In this document: in pieces, positions 5,401 through 28,599 of the stretch
Position numbering within the stretch: the stretch's first letter is position 1
Layout of the letters: every line of letters starts with the position of its first letter
IMG/VR virus record: IMGVR_UViG_3300009164_000259
Span: 1-29,389 of that record
From: a virus
Length of the DNA: 29,389 nt
Reading direction: 5' to 3' (one strand)
Notes under the pieces: generated by a model
What the model was told of the DNA's origin: nothing
The model's input: only the letters and a program-made list of their open reading frames with translations
Database searches by the model: none
Translations under genes and position numbers: made by a program

Positions 5401-5702
5401 TGACCAAGAAAAAGACGGTGGCGACCATCACACGCAGCGCGAAGCATCCAAGAATCGCGTATATCATCATCCCCAAGGGGATGGTTCCCGACAGTGATCG
5501 GGTGGACATCCTGATGAATTCCAAGAAGGTCTTGGCATTTGATTTCCACGCCGAGGGGAAGACATCCGTATACAGGACAAGCCGCGATGCCGCGACTGTC
5601 AGGATAAACTTCCCCATCGGCGTGGTTGATGAAATTCCCTACGGCGCGATGGACTGCACCTTAGCCCCCAGAGGGGGATTATTCATCGTCACGGGGCAGT
5701 AG
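5400..5702 (+). CDS. Last gene of the early operon, unknown function
   Basis: This 100-residue basic protein starts MTKKKTVATITRS and contains HPRIAYIIIPKGMVPDSDRV, KVLAFDFHAEGKTSVY and APRGGLFIVTGQ, suggesting a beta-rich fold. The start overlaps the preceding stop (TGATG). Its last 14 bases overlap, on the opposite strand, the end of the last late gene, so the early and late operons meet tail to tail here. I do not recognise a family, and no catalytic motif is visible. Confidence 0.6.
   Translation: MTKKKTVATITRSAKHPRIAYIIIPKGMVPDSDRVDILMNSKKVLAFDFHAEGKTSVYRTSRDAATVRINFPIGVVDEIPYGAMDCTLAPRGGLFIVTGQ
5665..5677. terminator. Short C5-AGA-G5 hairpin near the convergent operon ends
   Basis: CCCCC and GGGGG flank an AGA loop. 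The element is inside the end of the last early gene, and on the minus strand lies about 12 bases past the stop of the last late gene. It is the only hairpin I see at this convergence, and no long T-run follows on either strand. It may be a weak terminator for late transcripts. Confidence 0.25.
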
Positions 5703-6090
5703 GCCAAACCACATCATTGGGGAATCCAGACTGCTGCGTTACGTCCAGCAGGGCGCGGCGGTAGTCTGCCCACGCCGTTTGCTGATCGGGAGTCAAATCA
5801 CCCCAGCGCAACGGATTGCTGATCACAGGATCAACTTTGGTCATGAGGATAAGATCACGTTGCTTGCGGATAAGTTTTGATGCTGCCGCATCAAGTTCAG
5901 CCTGCGTCGGCGGTACATATGCGACCGTGGCGGGGTCCGCATCAAGCCGCGAGTGAAGTTCCGCAACATCAAACTGCGCCCCAGTGTCGTTGGGGTCACA
6001 GGTAAATGGTATCCACCCATAGATTGGGTGGTCGATCTCGCAGTCAATCGCCACGGTCCACGTTCTGCGCGCGTTACGGTAATCCATCAT
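5689..6090 (-). CDS. Tail-fibre assembly chaperone-like protein (Phage_tail_APC type), copy 3
   Basis: This 133-residue protein ends with the signature of the phage tail assembly chaperone-like family: RWGDLTPDQQTAWADYRRAL, then LDVTQQSGFPNDVVWPTAP. The YRRAL.D....GFP..VVWP pattern is shared with the products at 20795 and 22951. The start at 6090 overlaps the stop of the fibre gene as ATGA, with GAGG 6 bases upstream. The middle (TQAELDAAASKLIRKQRDLIL) is helical. Such proteins follow fibre genes and are thought to help fold or attach the fibre. It is the last gene of the late cassette. Confidence 0.74.
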   Translation of the reverse strand: MMDYRNARRTWTVAIDCEIDHPIYGWIPFTCDPNDTGAQFDVAELHSRLDADPATVAYVPPTQAELDAAASKLIRKQRDLILMTKVDPVISNPLRWGDLTPDQQTAWADYRRALLDVTQQSGFPNDVVWPTAP

Positions 6091-6950
6091 GCGTACCTCA
6101 AGAATAATCCACAATTCACATCGCTGGGAACAAAGTTTCCGCTCATAAGACGCCAAGAGCCAGTGAGAGAGTTGTTCGCGCGCAGCCCAACGTATGACGT
6201 GCCAGTAATATCGTATATTAGACAATAAGCTAGGTTTGAACCAGATATACCATCGCCAGTGTTTAGACCGTCAACGTTTGAGACCGCGTAAACATATGCT
6301 CCGACAACTGACGCAGAAGCATTAACAGATGCGTTGGATACGCCAGCCAATACGGCTGAAGTATTCAGGGAGGGCGCGGTTGATATGGATTGGCGGGTCC
6401 GCAGTGGGGTCATAATGCAGGTATTGTCTGCTCCACTTTCGGCTTGCGCTTGTGAAGCAACACTATCCAAGAGAGCGCCCTTGAGAGTTATTGTGCCGCC
6501 TAGCGTTGTATTACCGTCAACGTTCAATGTGCCGCTGATGGTGACATTGGTGGAATCACCGCCCAGTGGTGTATCGGCATAGATCACATTGGTTCCGTCG
6601 GAATAAATTGATCGGACTGTTCCCCGTGGAATTGTCACTGACGTGCCTCCAGCCGCGTTGCTGACGGTCAAGGTGAATGTGCTGGCTCCAGACTGGTTCT
6701 GGATCACCCACTGACCCGCGATAGTGGCGGGAATGCGATATGTCACGTTGCTGACAAATGCGCTGGTGGTGGACTTGATGCACATATTCTGTACATCGCT
6801 GGCCGTAAAATCATAGACACCCGTAGTCGTAGTGACCGTGGTGAAAGAACCGAATGCCTTGTCCAAGATGTCAGTGTTGGCATTGATCGGCACGTTCCAT
6901 GCTGTAGAACCTGCGGCGGGAAGGTTCAGCCCCTTATTTGTAGTTGCCAT
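6087..6950 (-). CDS. Tail fibre / adhesin
   Basis: This 287-residue, Thr/Ser/Gly/Asn-rich protein starts MATTNKGLNLPAAGSTAWNV. The N-terminus (NLPAAGSTAWNVPINANTDI, then LDKAFG) is the sort of virion-attachment start seen on phage fibres. A beta-rich body follows, with TNVTISGTLNVDGNTTLGGT resembling a trimeric fibre shaft. The C-terminal part (GVSNASVNASASVVGAYVYA, GTSYVGLRANNSLTGSWRLM) probably forms the receptor-binding head. The start overlaps the preceding stop (TGATG) and has AGGAG 7 bases upstream. A chaperone-like gene follows directly. It lies far from the other fibre genes, after the internal virion proteins. The receptor is unknown. Confidence 0.72.
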   Translation of the reverse strand: MATTNKGLNLPAAGSTAWNVPINANTDILDKAFGSFTTVTTTTGVYDFTASDVQNMCIKSTTSAFVSNVTYRIPATIAGQWVIQNQSGASTFTLTVSNAAGGTSVTIPRGTVRSIYSDGTNVIYADTPLGGDSTNVTISGTLNVDGNTTLGGTITLKGALLDSVASQAQAESGADNTCIMTPLRTRQSISTAPSLNTSAVLAGVSNASVNASASVVGAYVYAVSNVDGLNTGDGISGSNLAYCLIYDITGTSYVGLRANNSLTGSWRLMSGNFVPSDVNCGLFLRYA

Positions 6951-8744: not shown

Positions 8745-11700
8745 TTACTCCATCACAAAGTATCTGTAGAGAAGCGGTGACGCCTCTCCGCCCAAGATGT
8801 CACTCAGCACCTTTTGCGCTTCCTCTTTCGAGATTATGCCCTTCCTAGCCTCTTCCATAAATGTTCTGACAGATTCATCGCCAGACATTTTGATAAGATT
8901 TGACAGGTTCTCTTTTTCGGTTTGCCGCAGGCCACCATAGGTCTGATTGTAGGCCGTCCGCCCACTTGAGGCCAAAGCCAGAGGATCGCGGTTGACGTAA
9001 CTTCTGACAAACTTTGCTTCGTCAATTGCATTCTGATTTGACATCAGAAGAGTTGAAGTTATTGCCGCTGCCGCATCTTTGTTCATATCAAGATTTGGAG
9101 ACACATCCATCCAAGCCTTGAATACAGATGCCGCCCTCTGCTCGTCAATGGTTGAATTAGCATTTACCGTTGACAGTTTTCCAAGGATTTGCGCCTTTGC
9201 ATCAGCGGACAGGCTTCCATCTTCGCTCAACGGGACGCCAAAAAACTGTGCTGCCCTTGATACGGCTGGAGCAATGTTGCTTGCGTAGAAATTACCGCCG
9301 AAACCAAAGTTTCCGTCGGCAGCGCCCTGAGACACCACATCAAACATTTCGATTGAATTCGGTTTCTGGCTTGAAGCGTCTACGGACTTGTCAGAAAGAT
9401 CAGACAGCAATGGGGGATTTTGCTCCTTCAAGTAATCAATACCGCCTGGCCGTTTCACGGCCTCTCTGTCCTGAGCAAGAGATTGATCCATCACCTCTTG
9501 ATTTACGGCTATACCCAAATCTTCTGGTTTTTGACTGCTGACCACTCCCTTAGATTTTGCCGCTTGAATGATTGCATTTGCCTCCCTTGGAGCAAGCATT
9601 GCCTGCAATTCTGGGCTGCTTTCAAAAAGTTCATAAGAAATCGTGTCGCCATTTGGCAGTGTGACATAAGCCTTGCCGTAGGGGTCAATGAAGAAACCCT
9701 CTTTCGTGGCGTTGATGTTTTCCCGCCGCGCTTGAGCCAGTGTATTGGCAATGTTTGCCCTTTGGCCCTCACGCGCCATGTAGGTGTTGGCTGCGCCAGA
9801 CATACCTGCCCCGATGGTCGGAAGCAGGAATGGCGATGGGTTTGACAGCATGTCACCGATGCCAGCGAACAACGACAGCATGGCGTCTTTGTTCATTGAG
9901 CCATCTGGATTGTGCATGACCTTGCCCAGCCAATTGCGGTCCTCGTATGGCTTCACGCCGCCTTCTGGGGTGTTACCACGGGGAGCAACCATGCCATTTG
10001 CACCCAAGCCACCTTGGGCTGGAATTGGATTTCCATCCGCCCCAATTGGCGTGGTTGAGTATGTGGATGGTCCGCCACTTCCACCTTCCTGCTTTTCCAT
10101 AGCAGTAAGCATGGCGCTACGCTGCTGTGGGGTTAGGTCCGACAATGGAGTGCTTACGGGGACGCCCAAAGCCGCTGCGACATTGGCGGCATACCTTTCA
10201 GGGTCATTAGTCCCATCGCCCTTTGGTGCGTATTTTGAAATCGCTTTCCCAATATCCATTCCACCATAGACGCCGCTATCAAAGAGAAGGGCTTCTTGGG
10301 CTTTTCGGCCAGTTTCATAGTCGGGAAATACCGCAAAGCGTCCATCAGTCCCGACAGCGCCGTATCGTTTTGCAAGATCGCCGTATTCCATATTGCCTGG
10401 ATTGTTGTTGCGGAAATTAAGATCGCCTTGTTTCCGCTCCTTTGTTCCATCGGTATACATGACATCAGTGAAGCCGTTTCCGCCACCAATAACGCTGGCA
10501 ATCTTACGACCAGCAGCGGGTGGTGCAACCACGCCAGTGGGCGCAACCACTGGAGCGGCAGCAGTTCCAAGGTCGGCGGGGCGCACTCTTGGCCGTGGGA
10601 TCAGGGATTGCTTCATCGCTTCGGCTTGGTAATCCCCAGGACGCGCATTCATGGCCGATGGTGGCAATCCAAGGCTGATAGCGCCAGTCTGATCGAACCT
10701 TGGACCAGCAACGTCAGCAAGGGAAAGCGGAGTTTGCGTTGCCGCAGTGCCATTTGTTCCCGCACCAACTGCCGCTGCGTCAAGCGCCCGCGACCGAGCA
10801 AGTGCCTCGGCCTCTTTTGCCTTTTGTTGCGCCACAGCAACAGGGGTCGGACCTCGGAAATCGCTGATAGGCGCAGCGGAAGATTGCGGCATGACGTGCG
10901 CCAGTCGCTTGTGAAGTTCTTCTCTGGCCTTATCAGAACCAAGGAAGTCTATTTCAGCGTCACCCGCATTTTCAAATGCCCTGTTGCCAAACTGCATCAA
11001 TGCGTTGCCAGTCTCTGGAGCGCCAACGAGTCCAGCGCCCAAGCCAAGCGCCCTAGCGCCCATGCTGGCCAAGTCACCGCCAAGCATTGCAGATGCAGCC
11101 GCCGCTCTCGGACCAAGGTCAAAAGACGAAAGATACTCTGGCCATGTTTGATTTGATTGTGGAACTGGCGTCTTTGCTTCTTTTCTGAAGGAATTATTGT
11201 CAAAACGATCACCTTCATCAAAGGAAGAGCGAAGGGCGTCTCTCACTTGTGAGTCTGGAATTTCTGGACCGCTTGCTTTTAATGCGCGCAATATTTTGTC
11301 ATTGTAAGGATCATCTGGAACGGCAGCCAATCTGCGTTCTCTTGCTGCAATTGCGGCAGCATCGGCAGCAGCAAGGCCAGCGCCTCCTGCGCCAGAATAT
11401 CCAGCCGCTGACGCAAAGGTTCCAGGGAAAGAATTAAAGAGCTGACGCACCCACTCTGGATTGCTTGTAGCGGGTTTTGGCGTTCCGCCTTCATAATACC
11501 CGTCACGGCCACCCGCCACGCCGCCATTGGCGAACTTGTGGGCTTGGCTGTAATCGACGGTCTTGTAACCTTGGGAGTGTCCCACAGCTTCGGGATGCTT
11601 GCGCTCGACCTCGTCCGCCATGAAGCCAACGTGGGTCTGCTGGGTGTCGTCACCCTTGTATTTGAACGTGTAGATCGGCAGCCCATTGTGGGTCTTCCCG

Positions 11701-13160
11701 ATTTCCTTGATGTCATGCTTTAGGCGGCGATCAGAAAAAAGAGAGGCAATCGTAGCAATTGACCCCAAAGAACTGGCAACATTGCTCAAGCCAGATTGCT
11801 GTTGACCCCCAGAGCCACCTGCGGTCTGCGGGGATGTCGGTTGTTTCTTATCCGCTTCCTGCTTGGCAAGGATCGAATCAAGGTATCCCGCGTGTTGTTG
11901 CGGCGCAACGGCCTGCGGCATAATCGGTGCGGGAATCAACCCGCCATCGGCATAGCCAGAGACACCGCCGCCATATGCTTTTTGGCTGTCAAAGATTTTG
12001 TAGAATTTCCCATTCTTGCCAAAGTCAGTGTTCAACTGGCTCAGGTCTTTCCCTGCGTTTGCGGCAGACGATAACATATCCATCATGCCCTGCTGATGTT
12101 GCGACATCAAATTTGGATCGGCAATCATCATCTGGCCGATAGGCAAATACCCTTCGGGAACATATCCACTAGAGCCTGGCTGTGATCCGACAGCGGAACC
12201 ATACGGCCCCGCAATGCCGCCCGCCGCAAAAGCCTCGCCGCGATGGTGTGGGCTGACGCCGCCACCCATGCTTTCGGTCGCCTTGTCGTAATTGACGGTT
12301 TTGTAGCCGCTGGGGTCAAGGCCAACAGCATCGGGATGTTTCTTTTCAACCTCGTCGGCCATAAAGCCAACGTGGGTTTGGGACTGGGGGTCACCCTTAT
12401 ATTTGAACGTGTAAATAGGCATTCCATCGTGGGACATACCGATTTCTTTGATGTCATGCTTCAGGCGGCGGTCTGACCAAAAACTTGCGGGTTGTTTTGA
12501 GGTGGTGGTCGATCCAGACTGCGCGCCAGTTCCCAATGCGATGTTTGCCAGCCAGCTTGCCACTTGGAACGGGTAACCCTGTTCCTGCTGGAACTGGTTG
12601 ATAAGCGCGTCCTTGCCATCCTGCTCGGTCTGCTGCATCTGCGTTCCCATCGCAAGCTGATTGCCTGCGAGGCCCGCCATGCGGTTCAGGTCATTCATAT
12701 TTGCATTCGTGGCCTGATCATATCCCTGGCTGTAGATGTTCGCCATCGTGGAACCCATCGCCATGTTCTGCTGATTGGCAAGGTTTGCAGCGGCAACGCC
12801 TGCGCGGTCACCACCGAAAGCGCCAGACTGCGCGGCAGTTCCGAGAGCGCCAGACTGGGCCTGCTCATTAGCCTGTTCCATCTGCTTGCGCGTAGTATCG
12901 GCCACATTGGTCAAATATGGGTTGAGGTAATTCTGAACTGTGTTGTAGCTTGGGCCAGATTCCGCAATTGCGTTCAGGCCCGAAATACCTTTTTGCTGTT
13001 GCTCATTCATTTGGGCGACAAAGTCGGACGCCTGAGTCCCATACTTCTTGAATGGGGTTTCGGCAATGGTCCCAGCTTTAGCGTTGATCGCATTGTACTG
13101 GTCCATAACCTCCTTTGGGATGGTTACGGTATTCGTGCTAGTCGTTGTCTTGCCGCCCAT
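8745..13160 (-). CDS. Giant internal virion protein with two S74-like chaperone domains and an NNPGN muramidase-like domain
   Basis: This 1471-residue protein starts MGGKTTTSTNTVTIPKEV. Residues 1-220 are Gln/Ala/Asn-rich helices. At S229 a peptidase S74-like (intramolecular chaperone) unit begins: SDRRLKHDIKEIG, then THVGFMADEVEKKHPDAVG; S229 and K234 would be the Ser-Lys pair. A second unit starts at S476 (K481). Each is followed by a Gly-rich stretch (AAGGIAG, ANGGVAGG). Near residues 910-1010 lies FRNNNPGNMEYGDLAKRYG, then RFAVFPDYETGRKAQEAL, the pattern of virion-associated lytic transglycosylase/lysozyme-like domains. The rest (about 1100-1471) is helical. S74 units usually end tail spikes, so two internal ones are odd. 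It probably enters the host envelope during ejection and cuts peptidoglycan. The start overlaps the GNAT stop (TAATG). Confidence 0.78.
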   Translation of the reverse strand: MGGKTTTSTNTVTIPKEVMDQYNAINAKAGTIAETPFKKYGTQASDFVAQMNEQQQKGISGLNAIAESGPSYNTVQNYLNPYLTNVADTTRKQMEQANEQAQSGALGTAAQSGAFGGDRAGVAAANLANQQNMAMGSTMANIYSQGYDQATNANMNDLNRMAGLAGNQLAMGTQMQQTEQDGKDALINQFQQEQGYPFQVASWLANIALGTGAQSGSTTTSKQPASFWSDRRLKHDIKEIGMSHDGMPIYTFKYKGDPQSQTHVGFMADEVEKKHPDAVGLDPSGYKTVNYDKATESMGGGVSPHHRGEAFAAGGIAGPYGSAVGSQPGSSGYVPEGYLPIGQMMIADPNLMSQHQQGMMDMLSSAANAGKDLSQLNTDFGKNGKFYKIFDSQKAYGGGVSGYADGGLIPAPIMPQAVAPQQHAGYLDSILAKQEADKKQPTSPQTAGGSGGQQQSGLSNVASSLGSIATIASLFSDRRLKHDIKEIGKTHNGLPIYTFKYKGDDTQQTHVGFMADEVERKHPEAVGHSQGYKTVDYSQAHKFANGGVAGGRDGYYEGGTPKPATSNPEWVRQLFNSFPGTFASAAGYSGAGGAGLAAADAAAIAARERRLAAVPDDPYNDKILRALKASGPEIPDSQVRDALRSSFDEGDRFDNNSFRKEAKTPVPQSNQTWPEYLSSFDLGPRAAAASAMLGGDLASMGARALGLGAGLVGAPETGNALMQFGNRAFENAGDAEIDFLGSDKAREELHKRLAHVMPQSSAAPISDFRGPTPVAVAQQKAKEAEALARSRALDAAAVGAGTNGTAATQTPLSLADVAGPRFDQTGAISLGLPPSAMNARPGDYQAEAMKQSLIPRPRVRPADLGTAAAPVVAPTGVVAPPAAGRKIASVIGGGNGFTDVMYTDGTKERKQGDLNFRNNNPGNMEYGDLAKRYGAVGTDGRFAVFPDYETGRKAQEALLFDSGVYGGMDIGKAISKYAPKGDGTNDPERYAANVAAALGVPVSTPLSDLTPQQRSAMLTAMEKQEGGSGGPSTYSTTPIGADGNPIPAQGGLGANGMVAPRGNTPEGGVKPYEDRNWLGKVMHNPDGSMNKDAMLSLFAGIGDMLSNPSPFLLPTIGAGMSGAANTYMAREGQRANIANTLAQARRENINATKEGFFIDPYGKAYVTLPNGDTISYELFESSPELQAMLAPREANAIIQAAKSKGVVSSQKPEDLGIAVNQEVMDQSLAQDREAVKRPGGIDYLKEQNPPLLSDLSDKSVDASSQKPNSIEMFDVVSQGAADGNFGFGGNFYASNIAPAVSRAAQFFGVPLSEDGSLSADAKAQILGKLSTVNANSTIDEQRAASVFKAWMDVSPNLDMNKDAAAAITSTLLMSNQNAIDEAKFVRSYVNRDPLALASSGRTAYNQTYGGLRQTEKENLSNLIKMSGDESVRTFMEEARKGIISKEEAQKVLSDILGGEASPLLYRYFVME
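11540..11735 (-). repeat. S74-like domain, copy 2 (coding repeat)
   Basis: The second copy begins at S476 (SDRRLKHDIKEIGKTHNGLP, then GFMADEVERKHPEAVG, then YKTVDYSQA). It lies 741 bases downstream of copy 1 in the same reading frame and is less than fully identical, so the duplication is not brand new. The motif spacing is the same in both copies. Confidence 0.7.
12270..12476 (-). repeat. S74-like domain, copy 1 (coding repeat)
   Basis: This segment encodes residues from S229 onward (SDRRLKHDIKEIG ... GFMADEVEKKHPDAVG ... YKTVNYDKAT). It is clearly similar at DNA level to the segment at 11540-11735; both share stretches such as TTGATGTCATGCTT and AAGCCAACGTGGGT. The similarity suggests an in-gene duplication rather than two independent captures. 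Confidence 0.7.
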
Positions 13161-14234: not shown

Positions 14235-14588
14235 TTATGTTCCCTCAGAATATGTGACAACGACGGTCATACCAGTCCCTGGGACGACATAGAGGCCATT
14301 GTTATACGGCATGTTGATTACGGTCACGCCAATTGCGTTTGTGACGGCGGCTAAGGGAGTGGTCGCGCTAGTGGTTGTGGTGCTGATGTCGTGGATCACA
14401 CAGGCGCTGCTTCCTGCAACAACAACGCTGACAGATGCAAGTCGGCCCTGCCCGCTGGTCACGAGGGTTGCGGTGGTCATGGTGGTGGATCGAACCGCAC
14501 CTTGGACCCTCAAATAAGTAAGGCCAAGCTGGTTTACCGAGGTAACCACGTTCTTTGCGGCAGTTAGAATGTCTGACAGGGATGACAT
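14235..14588 (-). CDS. Small structural protein, beta-rich
   Basis: This 117-residue protein starts [20 protein letters not shown]. The ATG at 14588 overlaps the stop of the gp10-like gene (TGATG); the codon before it is TTG. After a short helix the rest alternates hydrophobic and Thr/Ser residues ([40 protein letters not shown]), typical of a small beta-sandwich virion component. It is flanked by structural genes on both sides. I do not recognise a named family; a head or tail accessory protein is the likely role. Confidence 0.6.
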
Positions 14589-17143
14589 CAATATTTTCCA
14601 TCTGGTTGAAGGCGGTATCGGATATTTCCCATCCGCCAGAATGTGCCGATTTGATTTCCCGTCACCCTGATTGAAATTAGCCTTGCTCTGATACGCGGCG
14701 AGATATATTCAGTCTGCTGGCTTACGGTGTAGGGGCCATACACGATTGGCGGCTGGCCTGGGTAATCGACTGCGTAGAAGGTGATTTGCACGGTGGCATT
14801 GTTTGCGCCGCCGTAATATCCCCACTTCATGTCTGGCCATACCTGATCAATGAAGGTCTTCAAGTCTCCATCGTCCAGAGCGAAGTAGCCAGTCTGAACA
14901 TAAGCGTCCATCGCAAAGCCGTTTGCATCAGTGGATGTCTCGTGCTGGTAAATGTTCAAATCGTCGGAAGCACCAATCGGTGGGCCGAAGATGCCCTGAT
15001 CAATCCACGCAGTGCGCGTCAATGTACCAAAATCCCATTGTTGGAGCAGCGTGTTGTATTTGACATATTTGGTGGGGACACCATTTGAACCCGTGGTCGG
15101 ATAATACCATGCGATTTCCCCGAAGCGGCTATTGGGCGCGCACCGCACGTTGCCCAAATATTCTTCATCAATGTCTTGGAAAATCACATCCCACACGGGG
15201 CATGGCAACGGCTGGACGCCGCCGCCTGCCAGCATATAGAATTGGCTCTGTGACATCCAATAAACGATGCCGCCCATTGTCCCCATTGCCTTTCGGCCAA
15301 CGAGGCCGCAGCCCGATCCAATTTCGTTGAACGAATAGACCAGAGGCAGGTTGATGTATTGCATCGACCACAGATTGGTATCTGTCCACAGAAGGCCCTG
15401 CTGCGGACCTTGCATAGCGCCGACAATTTTTGATCCCTTGGGGATGCGGAATGATCCAGCCTGATTGCTGACTGTGGCAACCCAACTGGTAAAATTGCCG
15501 ATGTCCGTCCAGCGCACCAGCAGGGGGTCTTGGATGCCATTGAATGTCGAGCCATAGGCAATGATTTGACGCTCAGGCATAGCCACAAAGCAGCCTTCGT
15601 TGACACTGGGCGCATATGGGATGACATTGGAATGTCTGGAGCCGCCGAGGGGATCATAATAGAATATCCCGTTCTTGGCTGGACTGGAGACAAGGAACCC
15701 CCCCCAGTTGTCAAGGGACCAATCCGTTACATCAAGTGGTGCAACGCCAGTCCCCGTGGTGTTGTAGACCCCAGGCGGGAATCCCCAACTTACTATTGCC
15801 ACGGTTCCAGCAGTTTCGGTAGCTGCCGATGATTGAACGGGGAATGAAAATGTGCTTGTCGTTCCAGAAGTCGCCGCCGTTGATGTGAATGTGCCGTTGT
15901 AATTTGTGGTTCCGCTGATCGTGAATTCAGAGGTCGGCGCAATGAATATTTCTTGGTTGATCGTAACCGTTGCCAAGAGTCCGACCGTAGAAATTGATGC
16001 GATTGAAAATCTACGGCCACCGCTGGATGTAACACCAGTTCCATAACCACCAAAGCCCCAAGCGCCATCACCAAAGCCAGTGGGACTTGGGGTGTTCTGC
16101 TTGCCAACGTAGTAGTCAATCCGCGCTTTTCCGCCGTTCATTGACACTGTGGCGGTCGAGGATGCGGCGTATGTGGACGAAATTACAAAAGTATTTGTAG
16201 TGGGTGCTGGGCTTTCTAGAACCAGATAATTGCCATACAGCGTAATGCCACCAACCGTTGTCGGGATAAGGATGGGGAATGTTGCGCCAACGGAATAGCC
16301 GTGGTTCGGAAGGGTAACCGTCACGTTGCTCTGGTTAGCGCCAGTGGTAAAGGATGGGACGACGCCGCTTGTTGCCGATGTTGAGACGAAGGTTCCCGCC
16401 ACGGTCAGGGGGCCAAGGTTTGTCGCTCCAGTAGAAAATGTAAACGTCCCCGCCGCAGATGTCAGGACTGTCCACGTGGCATTATATCCCACGGGGGTGA
16501 CGCCTGAGAATGTGACTGTGGAGCCGACAGTCACGATAAGGTTTGAGGTCGAACACGTGGCCGTTGCAATAAAGTTCGGCGTTGTACCCGATACTGTAAT
16601 TGCCGTAACGGCGAAGGTGTTTGTCGCGGGCGTTTGAAGCCCAATGATGTTTCGCGCGACAATTTGATAATTGTTGCTGGTTACGGCTATCGGGGGATAA
16701 TATCCGAACAAGACAATGCCGCCAACGCTGATTGGGGTCAAGATATTGACGCCATCAAACGACGACACGTTTGAATTCGTGTCATTGATCAGAACTGTGG
16801 CGGAACCGTTGGTGGTTAGCGCCGACACCGCCAAGTTGTAAGTGTAGTAATCAGGCGAAATATCAAAGGAATCAATGTCACCTTGGGCGTAGAGAAGCCC
16901 TTTCTCTGTCCCAATTGCGAGGTAGGACGTTCCATTTGTATCCGCCCAAGAGTGCAGGGCGCGAATAATTGCAGTCTGTGTCGAGGCAAATTTTGTCCAT
17001 CCGCCCAGTTTCTGCGCCAGACCAAGGCCCTGCCGATCTGGGACAAACCTGATCAGATTGCTGTTTGATACAGCCGCCTCGTTAAGGGCGGGAGTTCTAT
17101 TCTGATCAACCCCTGGGATCAGTTTAAGGCTGGCGTGTGGCAT
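14588..17143 (-). CDS. P22 gp10-like packaged-DNA stabilisation / tail hub protein
   Basis: This 851-residue protein starts MPHASLKLIPGVDQNRTPAL, followed by NLIRFVPDRQGLGLAQKLGG and W. The pattern PGVD..rTp.lN...v...nLIRF.....QKLGGW is typical of gp10-like stabilisation proteins that close the DNA channel in short-tailed phages. The C-terminal half contains LLVRWTDIGNFTSWVATVSN and GSGCGLVGRKAMGTMGGIVY, as expected for the beta-propeller-like part. Four Thr/Ser-rich beta units are inserted near residues 106-185, 190-258, 268-338 and 383-450 (for example GYNATWTVLTSAAGTFTFST and NYNGTFTSTAATSGTTSTFS). These resemble an insertion in the next upstream gene. The family assignment rests on recognised motifs, not on a search. 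Confidence 0.68.
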   Translation of the reverse strand: MPHASLKLIPGVDQNRTPALNEAAVSNSNLIRFVPDRQGLGLAQKLGGWTKFASTQTAIIRALHSWADTNGTSYLAIGTEKGLLYAQGDIDSFDISPDYYTYNLAVSALTTNGSATVLINDTNSNVSSFDGVNILTPISVGGIVLFGYYPPIAVTSNNYQIVARNIIGLQTPATNTFAVTAITVSGTTPNFIATATCSTSNLIVTVGSTVTFSGVTPVGYNATWTVLTSAAGTFTFSTGATNLGPLTVAGTFVSTSATSGVVPSFTTGANQSNVTVTLPNHGYSVGATFPILIPTTVGGITLYGNYLVLESPAPTTNTFVISSTYAASSTATVSMNGGKARIDYYVGKQNTPSPTGFGDGAWGFGGYGTGVTSSGGRRFSIASISTVGLLATVTINQEIFIAPTSEFTISGTTNYNGTFTSTAATSGTTSTFSFPVQSSAATETAGTVAIVSWGFPPGVYNTTGTGVAPLDVTDWSLDNWGGFLVSSPAKNGIFYYDPLGGSRHSNVIPYAPSVNEGCFVAMPERQIIAYGSTFNGIQDPLLVRWTDIGNFTSWVATVSNQAGSFRIPKGSKIVGAMQGPQQGLLWTDTNLWSMQYINLPLVYSFNEIGSGCGLVGRKAMGTMGGIVYWMSQSQFYMLAGGGVQPLPCPVWDVIFQDIDEEYLGNVRCAPNSRFGEIAWYYPTTGSNGVPTKYVKYNTLLQQWDFGTLTRTAWIDQGIFGPPIGASDDLNIYQHETSTDANGFAMDAYVQTGYFALDDGDLKTFIDQVWPDMKWGYYGGANNATVQITFYAVDYPGQPPIVYGPYTVSQQTEYISPRIRARLISIRVTGNQIGTFWRMGNIRYRLQPDGKY

Positions 17144-20794: not shown

Positions 20795-21250
20795 CTATTT
20801 GGGCTTTGCGGGCCAGACTATGTTGCGGGGGAAACCGTCTTGAGAGGTTATATCGCGCAATGCCTGCCGATACAAAGACATTTCGGGCGTCATCACGGTA
20901 TCTGATAGTCCAGCCCAATCCGTTTCCGCCAGCAAGTCGGTCCTCATATTGCGGGCGCTTTGTGCGAGTTCTTTCAGGCGCTGTGCCACGTCGGCATCAG
21001 ATGCGGGGGTGATGTCCCATGTCTGAATCCATTCACCGCCCAAAACAACGGGGGTTCCAATGGCGGCGTTCTGAGTTACAGCATCAAACGGTTGCGGGAT
21101 TTCCTGCGGGGTGGCAAAGTAGATGCCAAATTGTTCCAATGCTTCGTCGGGCATACGCTCTGGAAATGAGGTATTTGGATTGTCCCGCATCAGATCGTAA
21201 AGGCCGTAGGGGAAAGCCACGACCGTTCCATCAACGACTTTTATGTACAT
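20795..21250 (-). CDS. Tail-fibre assembly chaperone-like protein (Phage_tail_APC type), copy 2
   Basis: This 151-residue protein starts MYIKVVDGTVVAFPYGLYDL, a beginning typical of tail-fibre assembly proteins. It ends in the chaperone-like signature RTDLLAETDWAGLSDTVM, then YRQALRDITSQDGFPRNIVW followed by PAKP. The ATG at 21250 overlaps the previous stop (TGATG); an in-frame GTG directly before it is less likely. The stop TAG is part of the ribosome binding site region of the holin candidate gene. It follows the propeller-like adhesin and a small helical protein and may help fold that adhesin; the link is inferred. Confidence 0.76.
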   Translation of the reverse strand: MYIKVVDGTVVAFPYGLYDLMRDNPNTSFPERMPDEALEQFGIYFATPQEIPQPFDAVTQNAAIGTPVVLGGEWIQTWDITPASDADVAQRLKELAQSARNMRTDLLAETDWAGLSDTVMTPEMSLYRQALRDITSQDGFPRNIVWPAKPK

Positions 21251-21498
21251 CACTGACCCTCCAGTTGCTGCTCGATGACCTCAAGCATAATGCGTTCCTT
21301 TAGCTGCTCTGTCAGGCTGGATGCCAGTAGGGCGCGAAGCTGTTCCGCGAACTCAAGCATCGCGGGGTTGTCGTTGTGTTCGGCCTCAATCTTTTCAATC
21401 GCAAGGCTGAAGTTGTCAATGTTGATCTGGTAATCTATCACCGAAGCCCTGCGGCCTTGCGCGGCGGCAAACAGTATATCCATACGGTCTTTATTCAC
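21250..21498 (-). CDS. Small helical protein between adhesin and chaperone genes
   Basis: This 82-residue protein begins at a GTG at 21498 that overlaps the stop of the propeller-like gene (GTGA), with GGAG about 10 bases upstream; an ATG at 21483 is the alternative start. It is almost all helix: RRASVIDYQINIDNFSLAIE, KIEAEHNDNPAMLEFAEQLR, LLASSLTEQLKERIMLEVIE. Small helical proteins of this kind often sit between a tail protein and its assembly factor. I do not recognise the family. No membrane segment or catalytic motif is visible. Confidence 0.58.
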   Translation of the reverse strand: MNKDRMDILFAAAQGRRASVIDYQINIDNFSLAIEKIEAEHNDNPAMLEFAEQLRALLASSLTEQLKERIMLEVIEQQLEGQ

Positions 21499-22526
21499 GA
21501 TGTTCTAACTCCAAAGCTTATGCCATTCGCATTCCCGCTCGGAAGCGTGGATGGGTCGGCATATTTTGTTCCGAAGGCGGTTCCAGTCCACGGGTATGCA
21601 GATACATATGGACTGGTATCGTGAGCCACCGCAATGGTGGCCCCATTGGGCGTAAAATCTACTCCGTTTCCAGTTCCCGTGGGAAGGGTTGTGGGGTTCG
21701 CGGCCTTGGCCCCAAAGGCAGTCCCCGTCCATGCGTAGACAGATATGTATGGGCTAACAAGATGGGATATGGCTATGGTATTGCCATTCGGGGAAAAGAT
21801 TACATCTGCCCCAACCCCCGTAGGCAGTGTTGATGGGTCGGCAACCTTGGTTCCGAAAGCGGTTCCAGTCCACGGGTATACTGACACGAACGGTGACGTG
21901 CTATGCACAATCGCTATGGTGGCACCATTCGGGGAGAACGTTACATTCTGGCCCGTCCCCGTGGGAAGCGTTGCGGGGTTAGCGGCTTTCGTTCCGAAGG
22001 CGGTTCCAGTCCACGGGTAAACAGATATGAACGGGGTAACACTGTGTGCCACCGCTATGGCGTTACCACTGGGAGAAAAAGCCAAGCCGTTTCCACCCCC
22101 CGTGGGGAGTGTCGCAGGGTTTGCAGCTTTTGTTCCAAACCCCGAAGAGGACCACGGGTATGCAGACACAAATGGCGTAAGGTTGTGGACAACCGCTATG
22201 GTGCTTCCATCGGGGGAAAAGGTCACATCATTACCATTGGTTGTGGGGATCGTTGCGGGGTCTGCATATTTCGCCCCGAATGAGGTTCCAAGCCACGGGT
22301 ATGCCGTTATGGCTGGGGAACCCAATTGAGTCACTGCTATCGCTCGACCATTTGGGGAAAACGCAACGCCCGTACCCCCGCCAGTTGGAAGCGTGGAAGG
22401 GTCTGCATATTTTGCCCCGAAGGAGTTGCTTGCCCACGGGTAGACATACACATATGGACTGGTCGTCGTTGCCAGCGCGATATAGACGTTTGACTGCGTG
22501 GCGGACTTTACGCGAGTGGACAGCAT
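21495..22526 (-). CDS. Seven-repeat beta-propeller-like adhesin (WD40-like)
   Basis: This 343-residue protein is almost entirely seven tandem units of 47 residues, from N13 to the end. The consensus is roughly TIAVAHxxSPYVSVYPWTG followed by TAFGTKxADPxTLPTGxGxx and VxFSPNG. Units 4-7 are the most alike; unit 1 (YVYVYPWASNSFGAKYADPS) and unit 2 (AITAYPWLGTSFGAKYADPA) differ more. Seven blades of about 45 residues with xxFSPxG is what WD40-like propellers look like. No signal peptide is visible. The start at 22526 overlaps the preceding stop (TAATG); a longer form upstream has no support. It lies inside the tail-appendage block, so a virion adhesin role is inferred. A head or internal protein is possible but less likely. 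Confidence 0.78.
   Translation of the reverse strand: MLSTRVKSATQSNVYIALATTTSPYVYVYPWASNSFGAKYADPSTLPTGGGTGVAFSPNGRAIAVTQLGSPAITAYPWLGTSFGAKYADPATIPTTNGNDVTFSPDGSTIAVVHNLTPFVSAYPWSSSGFGTKAANPATLPTGGGNGLAFSPSGNAIAVAHSVTPFISVYPWTGTAFGTKAANPATLPTGTGQNVTFSPNGATIAIVHSTSPFVSVYPWTGTAFGTKVADPSTLPTGVGADVIFSPNGNTIAISHLVSPYISVYAWTGTAFGAKAANPTTLPTGTGNGVDFTPNGATIAVAHDTSPYVSAYPWTGTAFGTKYADPSTLPSGNANGISFGVRTS
21498..22490 (-). repeat. Seven tandem 141-bp coding repeats
   Basis: The DNA behind the propeller-like protein repeats every 141 bases. The landmark CCACGGGTA (coding strand TACCCGTGG) recurs at about 21591, 21873, 22014, 22156, 22297 and 22438, with a changed copy near 21732. The repeats have diverged, so they are not fresh duplications, but stretches such as GGTTCCAGTCCACGGGTA recur exactly. 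Recombination between units could change the number of blades. Confidence 0.85.
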
Positions 22527-22951
22527 TATGTTCCGTTCCCAACTAAAGCGCCATACAGTGTGCCTGCCACGTTCCACAGTACCACGGTCGTGTATCCAGT
22601 TAGCGCCAGCGTGGGGGCGATCCCCGCGTTGTTCATCCACGTCACCGACGGCCATGTAACGATGGTGTAGGCGGTGCCGTCATTGATCATCAGGGTGATC
22701 GACTGACCCGTGGTCAAGCTGCTGGTCGGCGTTGAATTCCCTGTCAGCGTCCAAGTCTGAACCGTGCCATTAGCCGCACTCAGGGCGGGAGTTGTTCCCG
22801 TCACGGCAAAGACGCCCTCGGTGATACTGGATGTTGTCGCCAAGCTAGAGAATGCGGCGGGAACGGATGCAGTAGCTACGTTGACGGTATCTATAACAGT
22901 GCCACCCGTGGCATTTGTGATACCTGTCGTGCCGTTAAGTGTGATTGCCAT
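22526..22951 (-). CDS. Short tail-fibre-like protein
   Basis: This 141-residue protein starts MAITLNGTTGITNATGGTVI, a start seen in many phage fibre proteins (ITLNGTTGIT). The middle and end are beta-rich, with TWTLTGNSTPTSSLTTGQSI, then TLMINDGTAYTIVTWPSVTW and TTVVLWNVAGTLYGALVGNG, the last resembling the tip of short fibres. Its start overlaps the stop of the chaperone-like gene (TGATG), and its stop overlaps the propeller gene start. It may be the attachment partner of the propeller-like protein or a separate small fibre. Confidence 0.68.
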   Translation of the reverse strand: MAITLNGTTGITNATGGTVIDTVNVATASVPAAFSSLATTSSITEGVFAVTGTTPALSAANGTVQTWTLTGNSTPTSSLTTGQSITLMINDGTAYTIVTWPSVTWMNNAGIAPTLALTGYTTVVLWNVAGTLYGALVGNGT

Positions 22952-23298
22952 CAGATCACCTCATGGGGGTAAGTGGGCCATACCACATCAGCGGGGAAGC
23001 CAGCTTGCGCTGTCATATCACGAAGTGCCTGCCTGTAGATAGCCCATACCGCTTGGTCTACGGGAGAGTCTGCGACTTGCGTCCAGTCACACGATGCCAG
23101 AAGCGTGTTGCGTTCCGCACGGACCTGTTCAGCGGTCTTGGCTGGCTCAACGTAAGGTGCGATGATCACGCCCTGTTTGATCAGTGCATCGTAATGGCGG
23201 TTGCCGCCCACGGCAGGGATAGTCGTTTCAATCCCATCTACCATTGCGGTGATTGAGCCAAGCGAGGTGTAACGTGCATCAGTGATGTCCACGATCAT
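22951..23298 (-). CDS. Tail-fibre assembly chaperone-like protein (Phage_tail_APC type), copy 1
   Basis: This 115-residue protein ends in the clearest copy of the chaperone-like signature in the window: AERNTLLASCDWTQVADSPV, then AIYRQALRDMTAQAGFPADV followed by VWPTYP. The N-terminal half (VDITDARYTSLGSITAMVDG) differs from the other two copies. It starts inside the stop of the 339-residue fibre gene (ATGA), so it is probably that fibre's partner. Confidence 0.8.
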   Translation of the reverse strand: MIVDITDARYTSLGSITAMVDGIETTIPAVGGNRHYDALIKQGVIIAPYVEPAKTAEQVRAERNTLLASCDWTQVADSPVDQAVWAIYRQALRDMTAQAGFPADVVWPTYPHEVI

Positions 23299-24314
23299 AA
23301 CTCCGCATCTGCTGTAACATTAACGATGAAAAAGCGCGCAGCCCCTGTTACATTACATTGCCCCTCAACACGAGTTCCGTTCAGTCTTGGACTGGGAGTA
23401 AAAGAAGTTCCAAAACCGTTCAAAAGGTCACTTGATAGAGAGACGTTTGGAGTCCCCCGCATTGTCACAGGAAAGGGGACATAAACCGCGTAAAAGTTTG
23501 CATTTGTGCAGTCCCCACGATATTCAGCAGCAGATGGCAGGTTTACAAAATACCGCTGACACCGTACCAACTCAGGGCCAAGTTCAGGCTGCTTGTACAA
23601 GTCAACCGCCGCCGTGGTTTGGGTGCCAAGCTTGACGTGGACGCCCCACAGGTCAACTGCGATGGTTTGCAGGCCTAGGCTATTTGTGCGGGCGTTGAAG
23701 GTCGAGCCTGCCGAAGTCCAGAAGTTTATAGCCAGATAGTTGTTAAGAGTTGACCCCAGTGTTTTTCCCGTGATCGAGGGAATGGTCATAGTGACCGCAA
23801 ATGCGGTCCATGAAGTTGTCAGGGTAACGGTTGTGGGGGAAATTGCCGTGACGCTTGCCGATGGCGATCCACCCGTGCCAAAGTTTTGTTCCGCCTCTAG
23901 GGCCATATTGCCAGAACCTGTGGCTCGCTTTGCCCATCCCAAGACTGTAATCGTCTGGCCAGCGTAGCTGCGGACGCCTTCAATGCGCTGCTGCGTATTG
24001 GCATACTGTGCGGAAGTCGTTTGACCCGTCACGTCTTGCCGCAGGAAATATGTGGGGTTGCTTGAGCCGATGGTAGTTCCAAGGGTGAAGGCTTGCTGTG
24101 ACTGCGTAACCGTGCCGCCCGTAAGGCCGTTGAACCACCGATCAGCCCCATATACAGCAGTGGTGAAGCTTGTCCCCCGCTGCCAGAAATCCATAGCGCC
24201 GTTGATGATCAGGTTCTGCGGGTCCAGAACGCCTTGACGTAACGGGATACCGTTGAACGTGGCGGTGTTACCGCCAGAGGCATCAAGGATGGCGTTAGCC
24301 TTTACAGTGGACAT
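23295..24314 (-). CDS. Receptor-binding tail fibre
   Basis: This 339-residue protein starts MSTVKANAILDASGGNTATF and contains NLIINGAMDFWQRGTSFT at about residues 34-51, then YGADRWFNG. This opening is shared by a common group of phage and prophage fibre proteins. A carbohydrate-binding-module-like jelly-roll follows (TYFLRQDVTGQTTSAQYANT, QTITVLGWAKRATGSGNMAL, WTAFAVTMTIPSITGKTLGS). The last third (PELGPELVRCQRYFVNLPSA, PFPVTMRGTPNVSLSS) is typical of the tip. Start and stop overlap or abut the neighbours. The likely role is binding a host-surface sugar or protein. Confidence 0.8.
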   Translation of the reverse strand: MSTVKANAILDASGGNTATFNGIPLRQGVLDPQNLIINGAMDFWQRGTSFTTAVYGADRWFNGLTGGTVTQSQQAFTLGTTIGSSNPTYFLRQDVTGQTTSAQYANTQQRIEGVRSYAGQTITVLGWAKRATGSGNMALEAEQNFGTGGSPSASVTAISPTTVTLTTSWTAFAVTMTIPSITGKTLGSTLNNYLAINFWTSAGSTFNARTNSLGLQTIAVDLWGVHVKLGTQTTAAVDLYKQPELGPELVRCQRYFVNLPSAAEYRGDCTNANFYAVYVPFPVTMRGTPNVSLSSDLLNGFGTSFTPSPRLNGTRVEGQCNVTGAARFFIVNVTADAEL

Positions 24315-25618: not shown

Positions 25619-26127
25619 CAGATCGGTCCTGTCTCTGGAACTTCAGTGTTACCATACGGCAATCCCGCCTCTGTGGCTAGTGGCGGCGTCTGCGCTGCGG
25701 GGTCAGTGCCTGGCTGTTGGTTCAAGCTGCCATCAGCGCCGCCAGTTTGCTGCGTGACGCGGGTCTTATCGTTTTCGGTGATGCGGACATCACCATCGGG
25801 GACCATGATACCAGTCTTGGCGTTCATTGTGGCGGGGCGACTGGTCAAGCGGAAATCCGTCTCGGCGTTGACGAACTGCTGTGGGCGCGCATTCAGGATT
25901 GGCATTGGATCGGCGGGCAGGACGATAGACCGAAGCTGCTGCTGCGGATCATCCATGCAGTGATTGCACACCAGCAGGCGCTTGTTGATCATTGACGCGC
26001 CAGCCCAGTCATACTGCCAGCCCAGATCAACGTGATTGTATCGGCCACCGCAGCGGTCACATATGGCATGTGCAGCGGGTGATCTTAAACTGGTCCTCGC
26101 CTTACCTGATTTTGACGCATATGCCAT
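25618..26127 (-). CDS. Phage protein with a zinc-ribbon-like N-terminus
   Basis: This 169-residue protein starts MAYASKSGKARTSLRSPAAH. Two CxxC pairs, ICDRCGGRYNHVDLGWQYDW and LLVCNHCMDDPQQQLR, form a zinc-ribbon-like unit. I recognise the CDrCG.ry...dL.w...................vC..C.dp..PQ style from small proteins in phage structural clusters. The C-terminal half is low-complexity (PLATEAGLPYGNTEVPETGP). The start overlaps the homing endonuclease stop (TAATG), with AGAAGGG about 9 bases upstream. The role in the virion or its assembly is unknown. Confidence 0.65.
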   Translation of the reverse strand: MAYASKSGKARTSLRSPAAHAICDRCGGRYNHVDLGWQYDWAGASMINKRLLVCNHCMDDPQQQLRSIVLPADPMPILNARPQQFVNAETDFRLTSRPATMNAKTGIMVPDGDVRITENDKTRVTQQTGGADGSLNQQPGTDPAAQTPPLATEAGLPYGNTEVPETGPI

Positions 26128-26780
26128 TATACCAAACCCTTCTCACGTTCACGCCGAGCCCGTTGAGCATCCCTCATTTTGGCCTTTGTGTCATCAGACA
26201 TCTTCGGTCTTGGCTTTCCACGGGTCTTTGATCCATAGGTATTTCCAAGGTGTGCCTTGGATATTTTTCTACGGGCTTCCTCGGACACGGGATGACCCAT
26301 AGATGAAATAGACATCTTCATCCTTGTTTCTGCAGATGCTTTTCTTCCCGCCTGACCGCCAGAACACTTTGCCCTTACAACATCATTATCCATGCCAATT
26401 TTAGTGGCGGCGGAGTGTTTCTCTCTTGAATCAGGCGCAGACCAACGTCTTTTGGATGCAGCCCTCATTTTTTCTAACACATCTTCAGGCGGGCTTTTTA
26501 AGCCGTCACCGCCAGCAGTTTTGTTTGAAAGTTCAACGTTACGCTCTTTCCAAAAGGCAATTCGCTCTATCTCCAAGCGCAATGAGTCACCCTCAGAAAG
26601 GCCTGATGCGACCATACGCACTTCTACGCACATTCCAAGCTTCTTTAGCTTATTTTTTATGTTGCTATGATGCTTGTTTCTAGTGCGGTTTGGATCAAAT
26701 CTTTCCCCGCTGCCCTTCCCCACATAAAATGGAAGGTCAAGATCGGGACGCCAATGCTCATAAACATAGAATTTTTTCAT
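26127..26780 (-). CDS. GIY-YIG homing endonuclease with NUMOD3-like motifs
   Basis: This 217-residue basic protein starts MKKFYVYEHWRPDLDLPFYV, then GKGSGERF, a GIY-YIG nuclease core (YVY ... FYVGKG). R27, E72 (LEIERIAFWKE) and N86 (ELSNKTAGG) fit the remaining active-site positions. The C-terminal half has several NUMOD3-like DNA-binding units (SAETRMKMSISSMGH, SEEARRKISKAHLGN, SDDTKAKMRDAQRAR). Such genes copy themselves into phages lacking them by cutting at the insertion site. It lies between two structural genes. It starts within the stop of the adaptor gene (ATGA), and its own stop overlaps the next start (TAATG). There is no sign of an intron or intein. Confidence 0.87.
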   Translation of the reverse strand: MKKFYVYEHWRPDLDLPFYVGKGSGERFDPNRTRNKHHSNIKNKLKKLGMCVEVRMVASGLSEGDSLRLEIERIAFWKERNVELSNKTAGGDGLKSPPEDVLEKMRAASKRRWSAPDSREKHSAATKIGMDNDVVRAKCSGGQAGRKASAETRMKMSISSMGHPVSEEARRKISKAHLGNTYGSKTRGKPRPKMSDDTKAKMRDAQRARREREKGLV

Positions 26781-27460: not shown

Positions 27461-27715
27461 TTAACACTTCCATGCTTTTAGGGACAGCGCCTTGCGGGTC
27501 GGCTTGCCGCTTTCATCTTTCATGGGGCCTTCCATGCCAGACATTCGGGCGCAAAAAGACTTCTTGCGGGCAGCATCTTTTTCGGTTTTTGGCGATGGCG
27601 CGGGCGGCTTCAAGTTCATGCCCTGAGCCTTGGCCGACGCCCGACCTTTGGCGTTCAGGCCACCATCTTTACTTTTACCTTCACTACGCTGCCAAGCTGG
27701 TGTTTTGTATGCCAT
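27461..27715 (-). CDS. DUF6321-like phage protein
   Basis: This 84-residue, basic, Lys/Ser-rich protein starts MAYKTPAWQRSEGKSKDGGL, and contains NAKGRASAK, RKKSFCARMSGMEGPMKDES and GKPTRKALSLKAWKC. The pairing of AWQR.EGK...GGLN and KSFCARMSGM matches a short phage family I know as DUF6321, of unknown function. Its start codon and GGAG ribosome binding site lie inside the end of the HNH endonuclease gene. It is followed after 3 bases by the adaptor gene. Confidence 0.75.
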   Translation of the reverse strand: MAYKTPAWQRSEGKSKDGGLNAKGRASAKAQGMNLKPPAPSPKTEKDAARKKSFCARMSGMEGPMKDESGKPTRKALSLKAWKC

Positions 27716-28247
27716 TTGCTTTCTCCGATACGGCGGCGCACAGCGCCAAAAAAAGTTCAGGTTTAAGGTCGCTCTTGGCTACATTAGCAGCGCGACATAC
27801 AAGTTGCACGTTCCCTTCAGCATACCCAAGAGTAGAGTTTATCCTATCTATGCTTGCATTGGTAGGGATAACCCCTTCTCCAAGCTTCATAGTCATTACC
27901 CATCCAGTTAGCGCGCACTTCCCCTGCTGTTTTTCCCAAAGGTGTTCAAGATAGCTGGTATCAATAGATGCCCCCAAGCGGCGGCGAGCCTTGGCAAGCA
28001 GGTATTGCATATAAGTTCTAACCGAACGAGTTCTTATGCGCGCTGAATGCGACAGCTTTTCAGGACCATAAGTATTTTTGTGGTATGAAGACATTTTGGT
28101 TTTTGAACAAATTTTGCACCAAGAGTTGTATTTTGCCGAACCGTCAGCCTTAATGCCAGTTGTGTAAAACCCATCAACAGGCTTCAGTTCCCCGCATTTT
28201 GTGCAAGGCTTTAAGCCGTCAGGCCGTATGGTGCTTTTTTTAGGCAT
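27684..28247 (-). CDS. HNH endonuclease with N-terminal zinc ribbon
   Basis: I start this 187-residue protein at 28247 (MPKKSTIRPDGLKPCTKCGE) because AAGGAAGG lies just before it; the open frame extends further upstream but into the neighbouring gene. C15/C18 and C44/C47 form a zinc ribbon (CTKCGELKPVDGFYTT ... SWCKICSK). Residues 109-160 carry the HNH region: GKCALTGW, NASIDRINSTLGYAEGNVQL and VCRAANVAKSDL, which fits the D-R-I...GY..gNvqlvc...N..K pattern of phage HNH nucleases. It looks like a free-standing homing-type nuclease. Its last 32 bases overlap the start of the DUF6321-like gene. Confidence 0.82.
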   Translation of the reverse strand: MPKKSTIRPDGLKPCTKCGELKPVDGFYTTGIKADGSAKYNSWCKICSKTKMSSYHKNTYGPEKLSHSARIRTRSVRTYMQYLLAKARRRLGASIDTSYLEHLWEKQQGKCALTGWVMTMKLGEGVIPTNASIDRINSTLGYAEGNVQLVCRAANVAKSDLKPELFLALCAAVSEKANGIQNTSLAA

Positions 28248-28290
28248 TAGTCTTGGCCTTCCTTGCGAGTCCAAGCGGGTGACTTTGCCA

Positions 28291-28599
28291 TTACCGAACT
28301 CCAGCTTGGACGATGTACGCGGTGACCGTGCCAGTGCCTGCGGTGACGTTGATGGAAAGCGCGTGGTGGGGGACAGTGATGGAGCCGTTGATGGATGCGG
28401 TCTTTGCGGAGAAGCCAGCGTCAACAGCCCACACAGTGGGATCCGCAAGCATTGGGTCATCCATCGAAATCTCAATGTTGAAAGTTGCCACGCCAGTCAC
28501 GACGATGACCAAGCCGACGTTGAATGGGTTTTGGAAGCTGTCCGAGGCGATGACCGCGCTCCGCCCAGTGCCAGTTTTTGAAATTGTAACGGGGGTCAT
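28291..28599 (-). CDS. Small beta-rich structural protein
   Basis: This 102-residue protein starts MTPVTISKTGTGRSAVIASD and contains FNVGLVIVVTGVATFNIEIS followed by MDDPMLADPTVWAVDAGFSA. It ends SINVTAGTGTVTAYIVQAGV. The composition is beta-rich, like a head-decoration or tail accessory protein, and similar small proteins follow the capsid gene in other short-tailed phages. The start has AGGAG 7 bases upstream. A UUCG hairpin separates it from the preceding 62-residue gene. The precise role is unknown. Confidence 0.62.
   Translation of the reverse strand: MTPVTISKTGTGRSAVIASDSFQNPFNVGLVIVVTGVATFNIEISMDDPMLADPTVWAVDAGFSAKTASINGSITVPHHALSINVTAGTGTVTAYIVQAGVR

Follow-up and report, generated by a model that had tools for sequence, protein, structure and literature searches.

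The gene under study (P0001) occupies positions 21495..22526 on the minus strand of the window, the whole 29,389-nucleotide stretch of viral DNA that was analysed. Its open reading frame and translation, from an ATG at 22526 to a stop ending at 21495, give a protein of 343 aa, and the plus strand across the same interval contains no open frame. The surrounding minus-strand genes run in the order PF16778 chaperone, short fibre-like gene, propeller gene, 82-aa protein, a further PF16778 chaperone, a small ORF and an endolysin. PF16778 proteins are tail (fibre) assembly chaperones. A tail-fibre gene (23295..24314, minus strand, 339 aa; PHROG 4492 tail fibre, E 4.8e-59) adjoins the upstream chaperone gene (22951..23298, minus strand, 115 aa; Pfam E 4.4e-22), which is followed by the short fibre-like gene (22526..22951, minus strand, 141 aa), the latter with a weak match to a PHROG tail fibre (E 0.0078). 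Downstream of the propeller gene lie the 82-aa protein (21250..21498, minus strand, GTG start), proposed to be helical (alignment A2), and the second chaperone gene (20795..21253, minus strand, 152 aa; Pfam E 7.9e-15; PHROG tail fibre assembly). The propeller gene had been described as lying between a short fibre gene and a chaperone-like gene; the fibre gene does adjoin it upstream, but the 82-aa ORF separates it from the chaperone. The propeller ATG overlaps the stop of the upstream fibre gene by ATGA, and the two genes are probably translationally coupled, the propeller being a separate chain in the window. Since the ends of the cassette genes overlap, they are likely to be co-translated.

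Several other features of the window concern its tail and structural genes. Three PF16778 chaperone genes (5689-6225, 20795-21253 and 22951-23298, minus strand), each in a fibre-like block, occur in this 29-kb contig, which suggests several separately assembled fibres. In a 1471-aa protein (8745-13160, minus strand), two Peptidase_S74 (chaperone of endosialidase) stretches lie internally, a long way from the C-terminus; a Peptidase_S74 domain normally ends a fibre. Two ORFs between structural genes (26127-26780 and 27684-28475, both minus strand) are GIY-YIG/NUMOD3-like and HNH-like and are probably homing endonucleases (the NUMOD3 match has E 0.00045, and GIY-YIG and HNH were judged by eye only).

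The protein is built of 47-residue units, as the original prediction had described. YPW anchors (once YAW) occur at residues 29, 76, 123, 170, 217, 264 and 311, always 47 residues apart, and the self-identity of the protein is 0.51-0.58 at shifts of 47, 94, 141 and 188 and averages 0.08 elsewhere. The periodicity is not a product of chance, since the best value at any shift in 2000 shuffles was only 0.19. Units 1 to 6 correspond to residues 29-75 (22302..22442), 76-122 (22161..22301), 123-169 (22020..22160), 170-216 (21879..22019), 217-263 (21738..21878) and 264-310 (21597..21737), and the C-terminal part of unit 7 to residues 311-343 (21498..21596), all on the minus strand. The last unit is short because an N-terminal strand completes the seventh blade: residues 12-28 (22443..22493, minus strand), which carry model strands E12-20/E26-32 and a partial-repeat match to the repeat HMM, would provide the velcro closure of blade 7. 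The sequence motifs said to recur in each unit do so only approximately, being present in some units and not in every one. Thus an exact match to SVYPWTGTAFGTK is confined to the stretches that run into units 4-5, and FSPNG occurs only in units 1, 4 and 5, with FSPDG, FSPSG and FTPNG in the others. Most of the conserved blade residues are structural ones (Y, P, W, F, G).

The blades of the window protein share 51-74% protein identity with one another, and four-fold degenerate sites differ between them at 63% of positions, against 74% expected at saturation. Because these sites are near saturation, the array is old, and its blades have been kept alike by selection. Repetitive propellers, including viral ones, arise by blade amplification (PMC9218822), and a recent amplification in the window gene is ruled out by the near-saturated four-fold sites.

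Predicted fold, blade number and genomic context of relatives

An AlphaFold2 model of the 343-aa protein, computed from 49 family sequences, has a mean pLDDT of 91.8 and a pTM of 0.90. It comprises 7x3 strong strands with a short fourth element in each unit, and the N- and C-terminal strands fit together in the last blade. The top Foldseek matches are 7-bladed (WRAP-T designs, with 7bid at TMt 0.82, the YVTN protein 1l0q, and lactonases), while a sequence profile search of the PDB returned highly repetitive WD40 propellers (2ymu, WRAP-T and 6r60). At the level of Pfam, PF07676 PD40 scores 30.6 bits, above its cut-off of 20.9, PF00400 WD40 scores 22.7 bits, below its cut-off of 27, and Lactonase gives a weak match (E 0.0055) below cut-off. 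The PD40 profile places the protein in the WD40/PD40/YVTN repeat superfamily, but the canonical WD40 repeat family, with its ~40-residue repeats and GH and WD dipeptides, does not accommodate a 47-residue unit that lacks WD and scores below cut-off. Closure of the ring is deduced from the 7-bladed Foldseek matches together with blade counts in whole sevens among relatives (see below). On these grounds the original prediction of one closed seven-bladed beta-propeller is right as far as structure prediction goes, the model being a confident one.

Scans of viral contigs for relatives yielded 274, at least 598 and 281 stretches. Among 121 complete, distinct homologous ORFs, the blade count is exactly 7, 14 or 21 in 112 (67, 41 and 4 ORFs, respectively). 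Blade spacing in the 14- and 21-blade proteins is ~47 residues but lengthens to ~50-54 after each seventh blade, and these counts and spacers together indicate that rings are built in whole sevens. A 14-blade relative is predicted to form two domains, with a dip in confidence at residues 343-346, the ring junction; the whole matches the double 7-bladed propellers 2ymu and 1nr0, and one match to a 7-bladed ring reaches a TMt of 0.82. The nine exceptions to the rule appear mostly to reflect frames that are split or cut short, or diverged blades that escaped detection. In L053 (672 aa) the first blade was probably missed, L057 has a split frame, blades were missed in the distant L092 and L098, L228 ends early, L178 and L217 may have collapsed in assembly, L132 apparently has 6+7 blades, and L126 has 15 and is diverged.

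A homologue with 58% identity (UOF80687, 'wD40 repeat protein') is encoded by the complete podovirus MW202701, in which the cassette order is as in the window and is followed by a holin. The window protein also matches PHROG 19311 (E 2.2e-20) and, by Foldseek, the BFVD entry A0A6J5SDD4 (TMq 0.82), and no DNA-level relative of the window was found in phage records. More distant propellers (25-31% identity) lie in or near structural regions of POR1, ZRG1, CGphi29 and XacN1; these are too remote for transfer of function, and the text of the XacN1 paper does not name ORF384, its distant propeller, among the virion proteins.

The gene neighbourhood of the propeller is maintained across relatives. 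Among 129 distinct propeller genes, all with 900 or more bases of sequence downstream, the small protein and the PF16778 chaperone follow the propeller in 100, the small protein alone follows in 11, and the chaperone directly precedes the propeller in 4. Its location in the tail block, proposed from the window, is thus constant, with cassette partners at 115 of the 129 genes, and the 14 without them are mostly distant relatives. In many homologous loci the gene immediately before the propeller is a relative of the short fibre gene, in some cases as part of a much longer fibre. The small partner is 76-89 aa long across relatives and has a conserved motif, Q(I/V)NI(D/T)N(Y/F); a look-alike family (REVEYFHYDFDRINF) fills the slot after the propeller in other loci. 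As the small-protein profile was seeded with both of these families, the count of 111 of 129 covers both. Searches of Pfam and PHROG gave no clear match for the small partner, the few weak Pfam ones looking like chance, and it is possibly a fibre-assembly cofactor. A single chaperone is surrounded by two or three propeller paralogues in L022 (373-4654), L048 (4001-6990) and contigs like them, with three in those of the L022 type, and a 267-aa protein of repeats like ALFTNTNTFYSPTVAPG follows.

In several relatives the propeller is the C-terminal part of a longer protein. The N-terminus of L035 matches Mtd_N (major tropism determinant, PF18454, E 7.6e-12), one of the propeller paralogues of L022 begins with fn3 (E 3.7e-9), and L007, L035, L044 and L022 have tail-fibre or minor-tail PHROG matches. 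The C-terminal position on tail-fibre N-termini is where a receptor-binding domain would be expected. These fusions, the constant coupling to a fibre assembly chaperone and the presence of up to three copies around one chaperone argue against an intracellular anti-host or anti-defence protein that lies in the tail block by chance. Propellers are common protein-binding scaffolds, and the variable face described below would also fit an intracellular arms race, but we consider this explanation highly improbable.

The occurrences in bacterial records bear on whether the propeller is a bacterial protein in its own right. A non-phage bacterial protein was considered and set aside, as the genome matches with readable context look like prophages or phage contigs. 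Of these, L091 has a tape-measure-like gene and an integrase (judged by eye), L097, a prophage-like element of Pararhodobacter sp. CCB-MM2, carries the same cassette, and immediately upstream in L088/L098 lies a small protein similar to the cassette partner. A distant relative on a Massilia plasmid, which also has a gene for a phage capsid, bears the annotation 'tail fiber protein'.

Variable sites and selection

Among 456 distinct repeats, entropy is highest at blade positions 22, 24, 40 and 41. The model assigns strand a to positions 23-28, b to 34-39, c to 45-3 and a short strand d to ~7-13. By deduction from this strand order, the four sites share the top face of the predicted ring, where strand a begins and strand b ends, on the d-a/b-c side. 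The hypervariable residues of the window protein are G50, T52, L68 and G69 in unit 1, N97, N99, N115 and L116 in unit 2, G144, N146, S162 and V163 in unit 3, T191, Q193, S209 and T210 in unit 4, V238, A240, L256 and V257 in unit 5, T285, N287, D303 and T304 in unit 6, and N332 and N334 in unit 7, completed by T21 and T22 from the N-terminal region. Four such residues per blade amount to ~28 per ring, and the seven blades of this protein carry seven different four-site combinations.

We estimated pN/pS by a counting method from 77 independent pairs of near-identical repeats, bearing in mind that exchange between blades can distort such ratios. The value at sites 22, 24, 40 and 41 is 1.87 (95% CI 1.49-2.31), compared with 1.10 for the whole top loops; the bottom loops stand at 0.21, as do strands and other positions. 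When sites were picked from half of the data and scored in the remaining half, the median was 1.79 and the same four sites were nearly always recovered. Five ortholog pairs gave 1.85 at the four sites vs 0.32 elsewhere.

It is conceivable that the four sites are simply neutral loops, with the excess produced by exchange between blades and by the counting methods, an alternative that competes with selection and not with a role in the tail fibre. Pairs drawn from different genes give a four-site ratio of 1.28 (CI 0.85-1.88), which is not significant alone and whose interval includes 1, and codons changed at the variable sites often differ at 2-3 bases, as exchange would leave them. However, pairs of blades from the same gene give 2.08 (CI 1.63-2.65), the ratio peaks at low divergence (1.5-2.3) and falls to 0.78 in random pairs, and the split-half selection reproduces the same sites. 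In addition, the bottom loops, which are expected to be exposed too in the predicted fold, are constrained. We therefore regard neutrality as doubtful. The multi-base codon changes themselves suggest exchange between near-alike blades.

Diversification by a diversity-generating retroelement (DGR) was also considered. No reverse transcriptase (PF00078) was found in 24 propeller-bearing records, including the window and some that are fragments, and changes involving A are only in modest excess (0.64 vs 0.53), so the variation does not appear to depend on a DGR.

The distribution of conserved and variable residues also bears on a possible enzymatic role, in which a lactonase- or depolymerase-like propeller would cleave a polymer on the host surface. 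Many propellers are enzymes, and lactonases appear among the Foldseek matches and, weakly, in Pfam. Against this, the sequence has strong sevenfold symmetry, and conserved residues peculiar to one blade, from which a single active site could be made, are absent. Conservation falls mostly on structural residues, and the canonical binding face varies more than any other part. No catalytic asymmetry was seen, and an enzymatic role is very unlikely.

Proposed role and comparison with known systems

The fast-changing residues are all predicted to lie on one face and the neighbours are tail-fibre genes; the propeller is therefore most likely the part that grips the host. We consider it likely that it is a receptor-binding domain at the tip of a tail fibre with a diversifying sevenfold binding face, and infer from this evidence its presence in the particle, its attachment to the fibre and its binding of a receptor. 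The original prediction had offered a receptor-binding or an anti-host protein; the fusions to tail-fibre and Mtd_N sequences and the diversifying face favour the former, and nothing found speaks for the latter as such. Propellers often bind ligands on their top face. In the mechanism we propose, the ring would sit at the far end of a tail fibre, held there by the coupled short fibre protein, with the small partner and the PF16778 chaperone assisting its attachment. Its conserved frame would fold reliably, and the face formed by the d-a and b-c loops would present about four variable residues per blade on this rigid frame and engage some structure on the surface of the host bacterium. These residues would shift under diversifying selection, probably aided by exchange between blades, and the changing face would let the phage follow changes in the host receptor.

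The main competing role within the tail is that of a structural adaptor or spacer, which would hold fibres or needle without binding the host, as do the propeller domains of podophage nozzles. Nozzles of podophages contain propellers, 7-bladed in the case of SU10 (PMC9509320), the window encodes SU10-type adaptor proteins, and PF16778 chaperones build fibres and not tips alone. On the other hand, the nozzle position in the window is held by a separate virion-protein gene (14588-17143, PHROG 3287), a single hypervariable face with pN/pS near 2 is unexpected for a spacer, and variation between 7, 14 and 21 blades among relatives is unlikely in a ring part of fixed stoichiometry. We consider an adaptor role unlikely and retain receptor binding as the preferred reading.

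If it is right, this reading would name a class of host-recognition module that is widespread among environmental phages and now annotated only as 'WD40 repeat', would mark the residues that should set host specificity, and would describe a natural, modular and symmetric binding ring. The Caudoviricetes 'WD40/YVTN repeat-like-containing domain' proteins (A0A6J5SDD4, UOF80687 and PHROG 19311) are homologues annotated by domain only; the literature found does not describe their sevenfold copy rule, variable face or function, and the blade motif did not appear in the literature searched. The bacterial or designed WD40 proteins 2ymu and WRAP-T, the best sequence-profile and fold matches, share the high blade-to-blade identity but differ in having no tail context or described site-specific selection.

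The original prediction regarded a propeller as an unusual type of protein for a tail, a view that is not supported, since phages already provide examples of propellers in proteins for receptor binding and in nozzles (PMC4901313, PMC9509320). The receptor-binding protein gp45 of phi11 contains a 5-bladed propeller platform and recognizes GlcNAc of wall teichoic acid, and propellers also occur in the receptor-binding or peripheral baseplate proteins P2 of PRD1 (5-bladed) and gp131C of phiKZ (7-bladed, 4GBF) (PMC4901313). The likeness to all three lies in having a beta-propeller in such a protein, and PDB sequence searches detected no sequence kinship with them; phi11 gp45 in addition has a stem, a tower and a trimeric assembly, none of which was found for the window protein. 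Given these precedents, the propeller protein is best seen as a variant within a known kind.

A second point of comparison is Mtd, the tropism determinant of a Bordetella phage, whose C-terminal part is a C-type lectin fold that a diversity-generating retroelement varies. The likeness consists of the Mtd_N domain on one propeller homologue (L035) and of the proposed diversification of a tail-tip protein for host tropism. The two differ in that Mtd varies a lectin fold by a DGR, whereas the propeller-bearing records surveyed lack a reverse transcriptase.

The closest parallel for the variable face comes from the fungal HNWD proteins, whose WD40 domains have four codons per blade under diversifying selection on the interaction face, divided equally between the d-a loop and the b-c turn (PMC1805685, PMC12222747). 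The products of Podospora het-d/het-e resemble the phage proteins in their near-alike blades, in paired variable sites at the d-a and b-c positions (22/24 and 40/41 in the phage blade) and in the existence of double propellers. They differ in being eukaryotic intracellular NLR sensors with WD40 repeats of ~42 residues, whereas the phage blade has 47 residues, no WD and a tail-fibre cassette. Because both the repeats and the biology differ, we read the likeness as convergence and make no claim of direct descent. Tailed phages may have reached independently, and without a DGR, the HNWD solution of a ring in sevenfold units whose frame is frozen and whose one face bears four hypervariable residues from each blade, or ~28 sites, a proposal for which we find the case evenly balanced; if right, it would show clearly that the adhesins of phages and the immune sensors of fungi have converged.
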